From NCBI RefSeq assembly GCF_900103285.1, contig NZ_FNGS01000010.1:62001-126000 (forward strand): a DNA stretch of 64,000 bases, in the 5' to 3' direction. Origin of the DNA: Siphonobacter aquaeclarae (GTDB taxonomy: Bacteria > Bacteroidota > Bacteroidia > Cytophagales > Spirosomataceae). Positions 58,398 to 64,000 of this stretch are shown here, in pieces. The notes beneath the pieces were generated by a model. That model was given only the letters and a program-made list of their open reading frames with translations. It had not been told where the DNA came from and ran no database searches. The position numbers were made by a program, and so were the translations under genes. How positions within the stretch are numbered: position 1 is the stretch's first letter; each line of letters starts with the position of its first letter.

Positions 58398-58625
58398 AAG
58401 GAAGAGACGATTCTATTGCTCGAACGGAAAAACTCCCGCAAGAGCCGGATGGTTCAGCCGGTTTCCGTATTCCGGATGAATAGCCCGATTCGGAGGATGG
58501 AGCCGCGGATCGGGGGAATGAAGATACGCAAACTACGGTAGCTCAGGTATATGTTTCCCCGGACGTATCGCAGATATGCTGTTGTCGTCCCCTTCCGGGA
58601 TACCGGTCATTTTTGGGTGGGTGGC

Positions 58626-58673
58626 AACAGATAAGCCCCGCCGGAACAGTCCGTCCGGCGGGGCTTATCTGTT
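58626..58673. terminator. 20-bp perfect hairpin at the end of the SusCD locus
   Basis: Arms 58626-58645 and 58654-58673 are exact reverse complements around the 8-nt loop ACAGTCCG, 10 bp after the stop of the 58684 gene. GC-rich core (GCCCCGCCGGA); a weak CTGTTG tail rather than a U tract. Confidence 0.75.
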
Positions 58674-58683
58674 GGCGGTTTAC

Positions 58684-61041
58684 TTACTGGTACACCACCC
58701 AGGCCGTCCCCACACAATCCGTATCCGACTTCACCCGCAACCAATGCGCGTTGAAGGTATACGGGAAGGTGACGGTAACCGGCTTGCCGGCTTTGACGGC
58801 GATGCGCTTGTAGGTATGCCAGCCTGAGACATGGTCGAAATCGACTTCAAGCGTGAACGCCGCGTCTTTGTCGGATGACAGCGTAACCGTTTTCTTGTCG
58901 TACCCGGTCATCAGGTACGGCAGGGACGGCTCTCCTGCGCGGACGACCGTATTTTTCCAGACGCCGCCTTCGCCCGTCGGCTTCCCGAGCTTCCAGAGGT
59001 CGTCAATAGCTCCGAACCAGAGGCTGGTCATACCGGAACCGAAGATATGTTCGCGGTTTTCAGCCCCTTTTTTTGTTCCGGAAAGAACGAGCAGCCCCCG
59101 CCAGGTACAAAAATCCTGAATCTGTTTCCGGTGGGTAGTAATCGGCCGCATGGTAGCAAAACCGCCTTCCCGCGGGACTTCATAGATCGTTCCGTGCGCC
59201 TGAAAAAGGTATCGCTCCGATTCCACCTCGCGACGGCCCCGGGGCCAGCCAGCGGCAAAAGGCTGGTCATACGCCGCCAGCGTGCGGGGCAGGCGGAAGG
59301 TTCCGGTGGCGTCTTTCACAATCACCGACGCGTCATCCAGCTCAAAATCCTTTTTGAAAGCGCCGACAGCAGCAACTTCCTCTGCCTTGCTTCCAGCAGG
59401 CGTGAGGTAGCTCAGGTTTTCGTCTACTTCCTGATAAACAGTACCATTCAGTACTTGTAGATTGGTATTGTCTTTGGAAGGACGAATGATGGCGGCCACG
59501 GGATCCCGATCGGTCGCTTCTGCCAAACCGGCAAAAAGCGCTTTCCCGTCAGAGGCCGCATGTCCCTGCCCCTGGTAATGGAAAAAGGCCGAATAGGTAC
59601 CGGATTGACCGGCTTTCAGCCGTATCCACGTCGCTGCAAACGATGCCGGGAAAGCATACGCCAGGTATCCCTCTTTCGGTACAGAAACAGTGGCATAGTT
59701 CTCCCAGCGCCCCGTACCGGTTTTATCGACTTCCAGCGTGAACGTGACTGCTTTGCCGTTTTGATGGGTCAAATGCAGGATCTTTTTACCGAAGCCGTTG
59801 ATCAGGAACGGATCAGAGGCTTCTCCAGCCTGTACCGCGTCGTTTTGCCAGGGACCGCCCCAGCCATTGGCCGCGCCCCATTCCCGGAGCTGTTCCGGCT
59901 GCCCGAACCAGAGGTTAGATTGCGAGCGACCAGCCAGGGGATTTTCCAGGATCGATGTTTCATCGGTGGCGAGGACCAGCTGCCCGTTCCAGCTGCAAAA
60001 ATCAGGAATGTAGCGCAAGTGGTTGGAAATCGGGCGTATACCGCCGGTTTTCCCGGCGCTGAAGCCCGCCGGAAAGTCGTAAAACATCCCGTGCATGTCC
60101 ATCAGCAAGCGGTTGTTGCCGATTTCCCGGATGCGTGGCCATTCAGTATACCAACCTCCCCAGTGATCATAGGTATGCGTGGATTTCGGAAGACGGTACG
60201 TATGCCATTTACCGTGATCGAGGAGCTTGAGAATCACCGAACGGCGGTCCCAGCCGATACTCCACGCCGGGCTTTCCGGAGACGGCGCCCCGTAGATTCC
60301 GCCGGGGCCGGTGATATCCGTAAACTGTTTCCGCTCGACGATGGACCAGGCTTTTCCGTCCCATTCCGCCAGTACTCCCATTTCATCCTTGTTTTTCGGG
60401 GCAGCGCCAGCCTGCAGCAGCTTCGTGTCGATGTCGAAGACCTGGTGTTCACCATTGTTGGCTACAATCAGCCGGCCCTGTGCCGTGTATCCGCCTTTTC
60501 CGTGCCAGCCGGGTACGGGCTTGTGAAACAGCTTTTTAACGGCGAGGGAATGGACGTTGGCTTCGTAGAGCATACCCTCCATGTCATAGAAATAGACCTG
60601 GTTGGCCGGGTCGGTGAGGTGGCGTGCTGTTGCGGTAAGCCGCCCGGGCATAACGGTCTGCGGGATGGTGCGCACGACTCCTTCCTTCGAAACAAAATAC
60701 GGTCCGATGATAAGCTGGTTCGATTCGCGGTGAATCATCCGGTTGGCGGGCGTTCCGCCGACGCTCTCCGGCCGGATGGTGAGCCGGAGATTGTGATCGA
60801 TCGTATAGAGCTTGTCGGAACTGCCGCCCGGGCAATGCGGGGAGTAGGTAACCATCCAGAGTTTGCCTGCCCAGGGAACAACCGCTCCGATACCGCACTC
60901 GCCGCCGTTGCCCTTGCACGGAATACCGTCGCCGCGGTTGAATACGGCCAGGTGAGGGTATACGCCGCTGATCTGAAGGGGTTTTTGCTGCGCAAAGACG
61001 GACGAGCCGGCCAATAGGGAAATCAATAGGGCACGTTTCAT
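58684..61041 (-). CDS. Secreted protein of unknown function with an internal duplication, in a SusCD locus
   Basis: 785-residue exported protein (signal peptide MKRALLISLLAGSSVFAQ). Residues about 23-300 resemble beta-propeller-like repeats. Then two similar units follow, about 310-490 and 606-785. Shared landmarks in each unit, in order: WPR-x-RE, HG..Y..P, MRPITTH or IRPISNH, DFC[ST]W.G, SLWFG or NLWFG, GG.W.N..V.AGE, FTLEVD, FP..F.A.W.R.K. The cysteine in DFCxW is kept in both. No catalytic motif is recognisable. Starts 7 bp after susD's stop, so it belongs to the locus and probably binds or degrades its glycan. Confidence 0.85.
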   Translation of the reverse strand: MKRALLISLLAGSSVFAQQKPLQISGVYPHLAVFNRGDGIPCKGNGGECGIGAVVPWAGKLWMVTYSPHCPGGSSDKLYTIDHNLRLTIRPESVGGTPANRMIHRESNQLIIGPYFVSKEGVVRTIPQTVMPGRLTATARHLTDPANQVYFYDMEGMLYEANVHSLAVKKLFHKPVPGWHGKGGYTAQGRLIVANNGEHQVFDIDTKLLQAGAAPKNKDEMGVLAEWDGKAWSIVERKQFTDITGPGGIYGAPSPESPAWSIGWDRRSVILKLLDHGKWHTYRLPKSTHTYDHWGGWYTEWPRIREIGNNRLLMDMHGMFYDFPAGFSAGKTGGIRPISNHLRYIPDFCSWNGQLVLATDETSILENPLAGRSQSNLWFGQPEQLREWGAANGWGGPWQNDAVQAGEASDPFLINGFGKKILHLTHQNGKAVTFTLEVDKTGTGRWENYATVSVPKEGYLAYAFPASFAATWIRLKAGQSGTYSAFFHYQGQGHAASDGKALFAGLAEATDRDPVAAIIRPSKDNTNLQVLNGTVYQEVDENLSYLTPAGSKAEEVAAVGAFKKDFELDDASVIVKDATGTFRLPRTLAAYDQPFAAGWPRGRREVESERYLFQAHGTIYEVPREGGFATMRPITTHRKQIQDFCTWRGLLVLSGTKKGAENREHIFGSGMTSLWFGAIDDLWKLGKPTGEGGVWKNTVVRAGEPSLPYLMTGYDKKTVTLSSDKDAAFTLEVDFDHVSGWHTYKRIAVKAGKPVTVTFPYTFNAHWLRVKSDTDCVGTAWVVYQ

Positions 61042-61048
61042 AGCACAA

Positions 61049-62719
61049 TCAATAGCCGGAGTTTTGAGTGAGATTAGGATTGACGCGGCGTTCGTTGGCG
61101 GGAATCGGCCAGAGGTACTGCCGGTTTTTGTCGAAGTTGGTGACAGCCAGGGACTTGATATTTCCCATCAGGGCGGAGTAGTCCGGAATACCGTCCGCAT
61201 CGATGACGGGCGCGCCGGCGAACGGCCACTTCCCGCGGTCGAGTACATTCGGGTCCTGAAACCCTACGATCGGGCGGGTCAGGGCTTTTTCAGCGATTTT
61301 CCAGCGGATAAGGTCCATGTACCGAAGGCCTTCGCGGGCGAGTTCAACGCGTCGTTCGCGCCGGATTACTGTCCGGAGTGCTACCGCATCCGTGGTTTTG
61401 ACGGCCGGGTATGATCCGGTAGCCGTCACCGCGACGCCATAGGCCCGGGCCCGTACCTGATTGAGGGCGTTCAGCGCCGACGCGTCGATTTCTCCCAATT
61501 CTGTTTTCGCTTCCGCATAGGTCAGGAGTATTTCGGCGTAGCGGCAGAGGATAATGTCGTTGTCTGCCGCCAGGCGATCTGCCCAGGTCTGATCGATGCC
61601 TTTTTTCCAGATAAAACCGGTATAGCTGGCGAAGGTATTGACCGCCCGGCAGTCGAGGTTACTGACTTTCTTACCGGTTTTGTACGAAAATGTCTGAGTA
61701 GAATCAGGGTGCGGCTGATAGCTGAATCCAAGCCACGGCGTTCCAAATTCCACGATACTCATCGTCATACGCGGGTCACGGTTGGCGAAGGGCTTTTTCG
61801 GATTATAGAGCGGAGACTGATCAATGGGCAGCCCGTCGGTACACTCGTACGAATCCACGAGCGACCAGGTCGGTATCTGGGCGCCATATCCGCCCGCATT
61901 GCGCGAGATATAGTCGCGGACCGTACCGGCATCCATGAATACCGACAGTTCCTGCGAGCGGGGAATACTGATGATGAGCTCTTTACTCGTTTCTCCCGAA
62001 ACCAGAAAAAGATCGGTGTAGGAGCTATGGAGCTGATAGGCGCCGAGGTCGATGACGGCTTTCGCCGCGTCGCGGGCTTCTGCCCATTTGCCAAGATACA
62101 GGGCGGTGCGTGCCTTGAGGGCCAGCGCGGCGCCCTTCGTCAGGCGTTTCAGCTCTCCGGCGCCATAGCTGACCGGCAATTGCGCGGCGGCCCAGTCAAA
62201 TTCGGCGAATAAAAACGTTAGAATTTCCTCGCGGGAAGTACGCGTCATTTTGTACGATTCTTCCAGCGAAACAGGCGTTTTCAACAGAGGTACATCCCCG
62301 AAATGCGTAATAAGCCGGGAATACTGGTAAGCACGGATAAGCCGGGCCTCGGCCTCCAGGCGGAGCAGCACACTTTCGGCTGTATTGTTTTTCGCGCGGT
62401 CCTTGTTGGCCAGAAAGGTATTGGCGCGGGCAATGGGCTTGTAGCAGTTGACCCAGAGGGTACTGGCAATGCCGCTGCCGGCGTCCATTGTGCCGTAGGT
62501 GATTTCATTGCCGCCGACGCTGCGCTGCCAATGGTTGTCGGAATAGGCTTCGTCGTCATTTCCCCAGAAAACAAGGCGGTAGAGGTCGTTGACGGCCATC
62601 TCCAGCTCCGCCTGGTTCGAGTAGAAATTCTCCGAAGAACTCTCGGACAATGGGTTAAGATCCAGTTTGTTACAGGAGATCAGCAGCAGGGAAAGGAAAA
62701 ATAGGGAAAGGCGTTTCAT
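61049..62719 (-). CDS. SusD/RagB family nutrient-binding lipoprotein
   Basis: 556-residue surface lipoprotein with a lipobox (LLISC, Cys16) and the SusD fold: N-terminal FYSNQAELEMAVNDLYRLVF (33-52), TPR-like helices with LRLEAEARLIRAYQYSRLIT, and the C-terminal RRERRVELAREGLRYMDLIR (about 450-469) and LWPIPANERRVNPNLTQNSG closing segments. It would cap the SusC pore and bind the oligosaccharide. It starts 10 bp after susC on the same strand. Ligand unknown. Confidence 0.96.
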   Translation of the reverse strand: MKRLSLFFLSLLLISCNKLDLNPLSESSSENFYSNQAELEMAVNDLYRLVFWGNDDEAYSDNHWQRSVGGNEITYGTMDAGSGIASTLWVNCYKPIARANTFLANKDRAKNNTAESVLLRLEAEARLIRAYQYSRLITHFGDVPLLKTPVSLEESYKMTRTSREEILTFLFAEFDWAAAQLPVSYGAGELKRLTKGAALALKARTALYLGKWAEARDAAKAVIDLGAYQLHSSYTDLFLVSGETSKELIISIPRSQELSVFMDAGTVRDYISRNAGGYGAQIPTWSLVDSYECTDGLPIDQSPLYNPKKPFANRDPRMTMSIVEFGTPWLGFSYQPHPDSTQTFSYKTGKKVSNLDCRAVNTFASYTGFIWKKGIDQTWADRLAADNDIILCRYAEILLTYAEAKTELGEIDASALNALNQVRARAYGVAVTATGSYPAVKTTDAVALRTVIRRERRVELAREGLRYMDLIRWKIAEKALTRPIVGFQDPNVLDRGKWPFAGAPVIDADGIPDYSALMGNIKSLAVTNFDKNRQYLWPIPANERRVNPNLTQNSGY

Positions 62720-62729
62720 GTCCGTGCAG

Positions 62730-64000
62730 TTAGAATTTGAGGTTGATACCAGCCATCAGGGTTTTCACGACGGGATAGGTTGTCGCGTCGACTTCCGGAT
62801 CCCAGCCTTTGGGGAAGCGGTTGAGCGTAAAGAGGTCATTTCCGGCCACGTATACGCGCAATCCCTGCATGCTCAGCCGCTTCGCGACAGCCTGTGGCAG
62901 GTTGTAGCCGATGGTCAGGTTTTTCATCCGGAAATAGGCGCCGTTGATGAGCCAGAAGTCCGACATCTGGTAGTTGTTTCCGGCGGAAATCTGGGAAAGG
63001 CGCGGATAGCGCACCAGCAGGTTGCGCTCGGCGGTATTGGAGGTACTCCAGTAGTTGCCGTCGATCTCCGCCGGGGCATTGCCGAAGCTTTCACCAAAAG
63101 GCATGACCTGTGTATCGGCCAGGCGGCGGTTGATCTTACCGACTCCCTGGAAGACCAGCCCGAGGTCAAATCCCTTGTATTCCAGCCGGATATTACCACC
63201 GAATACGTAGCGGGGCAGGGAGCCGCCGAGGAGTACCTTGTCGCCCTCAGGCGTAATCTTGCCGTCGCCGTTGAGGTCGAGGTATTTGATATCGCCGGGC
63301 TTGACGTTGGCATTCAGCACGGGAGCGTTTTTGACTTCTTCCGCCGTCTGGAATAATCCGGAGCTGCGGTACCCGAACCACTCGTCAAACTCGCCGCCTT
63401 CGAGCTTGGCGTTATCGCCGCGTAATTGTGTTCCCTTCAGGCTGACGATGGTCGTCCGGGTATCCGACAGGTTGACGCCGATGGAATAGTTCAGCTTCCC
63501 GACGTGGTCTTTCCAGCCGGCCTCGAGTTCCCATCCTTTGGCTTCGACGACGCCGGCGTTCTGGCTGGGGTTTTCGTAGCCGAGGTACTTCGGAATATCA
63601 AGACTCAGGAGAATATCACGGGTACGCTTGCGGAAGTAGTCGGCGGTCAGGCTCAGGCGCTGGTGGAAGAAACTGAGGTCGAGGCCGGCGTCGATCGACT
63701 CCGTCGTTTCCCACGTAATATCTTTCACGGCATAGGTTACCTGTGCGCCGGCCGATTGCGCCGTCAGCTGATTCCCCTGGTAAAACAGAGCGTTATTATT
63801 GAATTCGATGGATGCCTGATAGGGATAATCGCCAATGCGTTCATTCCCGATCTGCCCCCATGAACCGCGGACTTTCAGGTACGAAATCGCGGGAAGGGAT
63901 TTGAGAAAAGGTTCTTCGGAAATCGTCCATCCCGCTGATACCGATGGAAATACGCCCCACCGGTAGTCTCTGTAAAAGCGGGAGGAGCCGTCGAGCCGGA
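62730..64000 (-). CDS. SusC/RagA family TonB-linked outer-membrane protein, 5' end outside window
   Basis: C-terminal 423 residues of a SusC-type TonB-dependent transporter; the frame stays open to the right edge, so the N-terminal signal, carboxypeptidase-like domain and plug are beyond it. Visible barrel segments are WTISEEPFLKSLPAISYLKV, RGSWGQIGNERIGDYPYQAS, TTESIDAGLDLSFFHQRLSL and the closing TTYPVVKTLMAGINLKF, all typical of the family. SusD follows after 10 bp. Imports an oligosaccharide through the outer membrane; substrate unknown. Confidence 0.96.
   Translation of the reverse strand, partial: RLDGSSRFYRDYRWGVFPSVSAGWTISEEPFLKSLPAISYLKVRGSWGQIGNERIGDYPYQASIEFNNNALFYQGNQLTAQSAGAQVTYAVKDITWETTESIDAGLDLSFFHQRLSLTADYFRKRTRDILLSLDIPKYLGYENPSQNAGVVEAKGWELEAGWKDHVGKLNYSIGVNLSDTRTTIVSLKGTQLRGDNAKLEGGEFDEWFGYRSSGLFQTAEEVKNAPVLNANVKPGDIKYLDLNGDGKITPEGDKVLLGGSLPRYVFGGNIRLEYKGFDLGLVFQGVGKINRRLADTQVMPFGESFGNAPAEIDGNYWSTSNTAERNLLVRYPRLSQISAGNNYQMSDFWLINGAYFRMKNLTIGYNLPQAVAKRLSMQGLRVYVAGNDLFTLNRFPKGWDPEVDATTYPVVKTLMAGINLKF

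Follow-up and report, generated by a model that had tools for sequence, protein, structure and literature searches.

A candidate carbohydrate-active enzyme family, built of a beta-propeller, a beta-sandwich and their partial duplicate, in a minimal glycan-uptake operon

Introduction

The function of a glycan operon is usually deduced from the enzyme it encodes. How, then, is an operon to be read that carries a SusC–SusD pair and, directly behind it, a gene that matches no named family? The question is raised by a locus of Siphonobacter aquaeclarae, which we analysed within a window of 64,000 nucleotides (positions 62,001 to 126,000 of contig NZ_FNGS01000010.1). The gene behind the pair encodes a protein of 785 amino acids, here called P0001. 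A preliminary description of the locus proposed a "binding protein or enzyme" and singled out one cysteine as a possible key residue.

Here we address the question through database searches, a structural model, residue conservation and gene neighbourhoods. P0001 belongs to a widespread family. This is likely a new family of carbohydrate-active enzymes of the propeller kind, though it may still fall within a CAZy class.

Results

The third gene of a SusCD operon

At the host locus a sigma factor, FecR, SusC, SusD and the target gene all lie on one strand. The features at the end of this operon are:

62730..63998, minus strand: SusC-like TonB-dependent transporter gene, running beyond the window (TIGR04056, E 6.6e-121, above cut-off; PF00593, E 7.7e-16)
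61049..62719, minus strand: SusD-like gene, 7 bp ahead of the target (PF07980, E 5.7e-49; PF14322, E 4.9e-17)
58684..61041, minus strand: target gene, an ORF for the 785 amino acids of P0001, the two-unit propeller and sandwich protein
60988..61041, minus strand: probable signal peptide, residues 1-18, without a lipoprotein cysteine (assigned by eye; lipobox pattern absent; pLDDT of residues 1-18 low)
58625..58674, no strand: perfect 21-bp inverted repeat with an 8-nucleotide loop, just 3' of the target; its arm is found nowhere else in the window

SusC and SusD stand in tandem, 10 bp apart and co-directional with the target, as in a SusCD system. Taken whole (L094:6731-10336), the SusC ORF encodes 1201 amino acids with STN, carboxypeptidase-regulatory-like and Plug domains; in the SusD translation a lipobox, LLISC, is visible. 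From the sigma factor through the target, the operon contains no named glycan-degrading enzyme, a component that SusCD loci usually include but that does not strictly define them. Downstream, the nearest co-directional gene lies 286 bp past the target and encodes a Metallophos protein. On the minus strand the inverted repeat shows no run of T; it is probably a hairpin at the operon's end.

What is P0001? The 785 residues have no Pfam match at E 10, no NCBIfam or PHROG family and no sequence match in the PDB. A profile of the family found nothing better than E 0.85 among PDB sequences, and one built from the second half reached E 0.12 at best, which is not meaningful. When 45 aligned members (P0001 and 44 others, each from a different one of the 80 loci described below) were scanned singly against Pfam at E 1, only scattered weak matches appeared. 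Among them PLipase_C_C matched four of the 45 members, with E 0.0051 at best, and F5_F8_type_C matched one, with E 0.00026; both were left unused. One long relative (L039) carries an F5/8 type C domain ahead of the family part. The earlier statement that no known catalytic family is recognisable thus stands, for Pfam and NCBIfam in the case of P0001 and for Pfam in that of the 45 members. By sequence comparison the family is without a name in Pfam, NCBIfam, PHROG and the PDB sequences, a CAZy class still being possible. We recognised no paper that describes it, a weak negative for a family that has no searchable name.

The N-terminus bears on where the protein acts. Inspected by eye, it looks like an ordinary signal peptide, MKRALLISLLAGSSVFAQ, followed by Q, with no lipoprotein cysteine, so a surface role is unlikely for P0001. 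Its place directly after SusD and the lack of any catalytic match would suit a surface glycan-binding protein, one that passes glycan to SusC/SusD without catalysis. Against this, P0001 has no lipobox and its SusD has one. By a loose pattern, a lipobox is found in 4 of 31 SusD-adjacent family genes (P0001's gene included) versus 22 of the 31 SusD genes beside them, several of these SusD genes being truncated where the locus ends. Across 96 family sequences the pattern, which inspection by eye shows to err in both directions, occurs in 15. Some relatives do appear to carry a lipobox, and for that reason subcellular location varies within the family.

A patchy family in nine phyla

One scan of genome contigs yielded 133 relatives, of which 80, spanning nine phyla, were kept: by record title 43 are from Bacteroidota, 16 from Verrucomicrobiota, 12 from Planctomycetota and nine from six further phyla. 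Because many of these are metagenome bins, isolated unexpected phylum assignments may reflect contamination. A search of 72,556 plasmid records gave a single match: Spirosoma oryzicola has, on a plasmid of 330 kb, a full-length relative of 39% identity whose annotation is hypothetical protein (NZ_CP089539.1:157339-159774).

The spread is patchy. Relatives occur in 9 of 38 near kin of the host and, phylum-wide, in 3 of 295 other genomes drawn (E 1e-20). Within the host genus 2 of 5 other genomes have copies, at 44-45% identity, and these sit on a different branch of the tree. That tree is a quick, unrooted one with several long branches flagged and two sequences (L062_3 and L090_0) excluded. 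SusD adjacency marks 31 of its 94 rows, in several clades, and well-supported branches force at least nine changes.

Four relatives are single-unit proteins of 480-483 residues that have just the first propeller and the sandwich behind it. In two single-unit genes (L089 and L091) the six-frame match contains one stop each, a TGA in one case and a TAG in the other; ORFs of 497 and 483 codons are open. An Emticicia bin (L069:9872-18563) has three consecutive family genes, for proteins of 851, 483 and 828 residues, behind a SusC–SusD pair, followed by an FAD oxidoreductase.

A duplication that straddles two folds

The preliminary description had seen two units of roughly 180 residues in P0001. 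The duplication is real. Alignment of residues 291-520 with 561-785 scores 303, whereas 300 shuffles give a mean of 33 (sd 5.2, maximum 54). As family profiles the two units match over 187 columns at 35% identity (E 7.8e-50), and by DSSP of the model described below the order of strands is nearly identical in 304-490 and 603-784. The units, as delimited by single-sequence alignment and profile comparison, are:

59575..60141, minus strand: repeat unit 1, residues 301-489
58690..59247, minus strand: repeat unit 2, residues 599-784

The landmarks that had been noted in the two units are all present in both copies of P0001; several are not family-wide. The glutamate of AGE is kept in 11 of 45 members in copy 1 and in 15 of 45 in copy 2. 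The cysteine of DFC, proposed as a key residue, is kept in only 27 and 30 of the 45, and on this ground the proposal was rejected. What the copies do share is a set of 17 positions, each conserved in at least 85% of the 45 members in both units. These include R303/R601, R305/R604, D347/D643, W378/W675, G389/G686, W398/W695, S409/S706 and W472/W767.

An AlphaFold2 model of P0001, built on the 45-sequence alignment, has a mean pLDDT of 92.3 and a pTM of 0.91. It is mostly beta, with only short helices. When residues 491-785 were modelled alone (pLDDT 95.0), the result was four blade-like groups together with another sandwich. The modelled parts are:

59872..60984, minus strand: seven-bladed beta-propeller, residues 20-390 (model and fold matches; blades counted by hand from DSSP)
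59572..59871, minus strand: beta-sandwich 1, residues 391-490 (DSSP of the model)
58978..59496, minus strand: four-blade-like region, residues 516-688 (model of 491-785 alone; hand count from DSSP)
58687..58977, minus strand: beta-sandwich 2, residues 689-785 (model of 491-785; match to XepA, 6i56)

Is the repeated unit a domain? A single domain is ruled out: in the model the unit is the last two blades of the propeller plus the beta-sandwich behind them. Because it straddles two folds in this way, the N-terminal propeller takes in the first half of unit 1. A propeller-like N-terminal region had been noted, and a propeller is indeed modelled; it extends through the first half of unit 1 to residue 390.

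The fold is less telling about function. Residues 20-390 match many generic propellers in the PDB (VIA-align; best Z 17.8, 3.5 Å, 273 residues aligned), at 6 to 14% identity among the best 50 matches, and many of these are non-enzymes. Sandwich 2 resembles the jelly roll of CBM6 2cdp (Z 7.3, 3.2 Å, 94 aligned), which is binding-module-like; were P0001 a surface glycan-binding protein, the sandwiches would be its binding modules. The jelly-roll matches of the second half also include unrelated toxin and phage domains. A function drawn from fold was accordingly set aside, the PDB matches being propellers and jelly rolls in general with no enzyme standing out; families missing from these match lists stay possible.

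Charged residues on or beside the inner strands of the propeller

In the first propeller 16 charged positions are kept in 97% or more of the 96 sequences. They are concentrated on or beside the inner strands: 10 of 67 positions in the inner-strand windows are of this kind, compared with 6 of the remaining 302 propeller positions (p 7e-5), each window comprising a blade's first strand and the preceding four residues. Because these windows were drawn by hand on the DSSP strands once the conservation was known, the p value serves as a guide only. When the conservation pattern was shifted circularly, 2 of 368 shifts scored as well as the observed one.

The ten invariant or near-invariant residues are E48, R101, H104, R134, H180, K182, E300, R303, R305 and D347. 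All ten are identical in the four single-unit relatives (4/4). They are kept without the second half, and therefore at least one function is located in the first propeller. The acids E300, D347 and E48 fall on neighbouring blades (6, 7 and 1, respectively), and the basic residues R101, H104, R134, H180 and K182 on blades 2 to 4. Such an arrangement, as read from blade order in the model, is what would be expected of a pocket for a charged sugar. That these charges are invariant or nearly so in 96 sequences also speaks against a surface glycan-binding protein.

The same residues suggest a more specific possibility, a propeller polysaccharide lyase like those of PL24, PL25 and PL42. In such an enzyme, a special case of the enzyme reading, arginine would neutralise the uronate while histidine and tyrosine act as acid and base. 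P0001 has the seven-bladed propeller in its model and the invariant R101, H104, R134, H180 and R303, and a pectate-lyase-like gene adjoins one single-unit relative. On the other side, neither BNR_4 nor any other lyase family is among the Pfam matches of the 45 members, and the E 0.85 of the family profile is the best that PDB sequences offer. A lyase of this kind is possible, if doubtful.

In the full-length proteins ten charged positions of the second half are likewise kept at 97% or more: R583, R601, R604, E605, E609, R610, E621, D680, D681 and D715. As conserved sequence positions with no role in the favoured reading, they speak against a simple one-pocket picture.

Neighbours of the family genes

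Neighbours were analysed in 79 of 80 loci (L002-L081); L093 and L025 are without a called family gene. Gene calls follow a simple longest-ORF rule and labels come from BLAST to clusters, so that both are approximate. The Pfam tally covers 87 of 186 same-strand neighbours, with the best 25 of 123 families listed; some of the other neighbours were scanned singly or via cluster representatives.

The third place after SusC and SusD, pointed out in the preliminary description, is seen at the host locus and recurs in 24 of the 43 Bacteroidota loci. The gene that follows the target in these 24 is most often an MFS transporter (10 loci), then an FAD oxidoreductase (3), a sulfatase, a second family copy or a member of a GH29 cluster (2 each); in 5 of the 24 there is no same-strand gene within 300 bp downstream. 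In the loci of the eight phyla other than Bacteroidota, BLAST found no SusC or SusD within five genes, a labelling that a divergent SusC or SusD would escape. Members in these phyla are a further point against a protein that serves SusC/SusD at the surface.

Several features of the loci deserve mention. Proteins of about 436 residues lie within five genes of the target in 20 loci (L003:3471-4871, L019:8479-9786 and 18 more), in 17 of the 20 divergent and upstream of SusC. By eye their N-terminal region is basic and their C-terminal region beta-rich, and there is a membrane helix; two representatives have no NCBIfam match and one has no Pfam match above cut-off. They are perhaps membrane-bound regulators of these operons. 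Two loci (L051:12453-20229 and L053:12473-20200) share a gene run immediately after SusC–SusD–target: FAD_oxidored, an unnamed 374-residue protein, a CstA-like transporter and an FG-GAP/UnbV_ASPIC protein. In each locus part of this run was scanned and the other members were labelled by cluster.

Do the neighbours point to glycans? Genes of GH2, GH29, GH43, GH95 and GH97 are present in the family loci, and single GH92, GH88, GH30 and GH116 genes and carbohydrate esterases are among the 87 neighbours scanned. Sulfatase genes lie within five genes of the target in 19 of 79 loci. Enrichment near the target is not significant either for sulfatases (15 of 295 near genes versus 7 of 235 far, p 0.28), for which a link by positional enrichment was set aside, or for GH43 (4 of 295 versus 2 of 235, p 0.70). 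The nearby sulfatases and the pectate-lyase-like gene are a hint of anionic glycans. PF07470 (GH88) was found in 1 of the 87 further neighbours scanned; its rarity speaks mildly against an endo-lyase that makes unsaturated uronates, and so also counts against the lyase possibility raised above.

FAD_oxidored (PF12831) reaches the most phyla of the seven neighbour clusters counted, lying within five genes of the target in 13 loci of six phyla. Its genes are close to the target: they make up 12 of the 295 genes at distance 1-2 and none of the 235 that are six or more genes away. This breadth would fit a protein that has nothing to do with glycans, such as a periplasmic scaffold, or partner, of the neighbouring FAD oxidoreductases, with SusC/SusD importing some other compound. 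Two MFS neighbours that were scanned might also be read this way; they best match aromatic-acid and sialate symporters, far below cut-off. We consider such a role very unlikely, given that sulfatases and the glycoside hydrolases and esterases listed above recur in the loci.

Discussion

What does this third gene do? On a slight balance of probability, the P0001 family is an uncharacterised, probably carbohydrate-active, candidate enzyme family in a minimal glycan-uptake operon. A putative periplasmic enzyme acting on anionic oligosaccharides is likelier than a surface binding protein, which the evidence from lipobox, phyla and charges makes an unlikely choice. The two possibilities of the preliminary description are thus narrowed, without being reduced to one. 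An enzyme is favoured because the signal peptide lacks a lipobox, because the charges of the propeller are invariant or nearly so and because the family has members in phyla in whose loci BLAST found no SusC or SusD; it is favoured also because in some operons the P0001-type protein is the only enzyme candidate. Against it stand the failure to match any catalytic family and the generic nature of the fold matches.

How might such an enzyme work? SusC and SusD would import an anionic oligosaccharide. In the periplasm P0001 would hold it in a central pocket, where the acids E300, D347 and E48 would face a basic arc suited to carboxylate or sulfate, and a glycosidic bond would be cleaved, by hydrolysis or by beta-elimination. 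The second half and the two sandwiches may give the pocket its shape, cover it or bind the chain. The MFS transporter found in 10 of 24 loci could then carry the product into the cytoplasm.

A fuller prediction is that of a new enzyme family composed of a seven-bladed propeller with a charged pocket, a sandwich and a partial duplicate, which would be the sole degrader of minimal SusCD operons and an accessory elsewhere. We give this prediction an even chance. Sole degraders would be found, for example, in Chitinophaga, Pedobacter and the host of the window. The accessory role, in other Bacteroidota and in Verrucomicrobiota and Planctomycetota, would concern glycans that carry sulfate or uronate and might be linked to an FAD oxidoreductase.

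These loci define a class of SusCD operons with no enzyme recognisable to the models searched and only a P0001-type protein in its place. If the protein is catalytic, one biochemical result would assign a function to at least 133 genes, and the substrate of loci annotated as transport alone would become accessible. The single-unit relatives, of about 480 residues, are small proteins suited to tests of the pocket.

Comparison with known systems

Two candidates for relatives were compared by description only and dropped. In the portions of text available, the words "propeller" and "fold" are absent from the account of ulvan dehydratase P29_PDnc (PMC8511951), and "propeller" is absent from that of the GH154 dehydratases (PMC12269599).

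From surface glycan-binding proteins P0001 differs in having no lipoprotein signal, by eye and by pattern. It shares the propeller fold with BT4663 (4a2l) and BT3049 (3v9f), periplasmic double propellers of hybrid two-component sensors. Propellers of such sensors are the top Foldseek matches (E 2.1e-10, TM 0.27), and 3v9f aligns with Z 17.1 (3.6 Å, 266 residues). Identity to the two is 10 to 12%, and P0001 has no sensor, kinase or other Pfam domain; the membrane helix and kinase of the hybrid sensors are lacking, to judge from the absence of Pfam matches and a model with short helices only. Sandwich 2 is like XepA (6i56; Z 10.5, 2.0 Å, 91 aligned) and YomS (Z 10.2, 4.0 Å, 98 aligned), which their titles assign to a phage-like element and a prophage, at 5 to 7% identity.

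Hydrolases of the GH43 type are five-bladed propellers with acidic residues on their inner strands, and in this last respect P0001 resembles them. It differs in having, by hand count, seven blades in the first propeller and four blade-like groups in the second half. Foldseek matches of that second half to GH43 entries are weak (3c7e, E 4.0e-4, TM 0.23), and PF04616 (GH43) is absent from P0001 at E 10 and from the 45 members at E 1.

A further comparison is with the lyases of PL24, PL25 and PL42 (the former GH145), which come from glycan-degrading bacteria and fungi. In these enzymes, which are seven-bladed propellers, catalysis relies on Arg, His and Tyr residues of the anterior face (PMC8377490, PMC8406133). 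No sequence or Pfam kinship of P0001 with them was found (BNR_4 being the Pfam family of the PL42 founder, and PL entries being assumed to be among the PDB sequences searched). Unlike them it has an extra sandwich, a partial second copy and invariant acids on blades 6, 7 and 1. Like them it has a propeller of seven blades, by hand count in the model, and it may have Arg and His near the axis: the invariant R101, H104, R134 and H180 lie near the inner strands, as placed by the DSSP windows.
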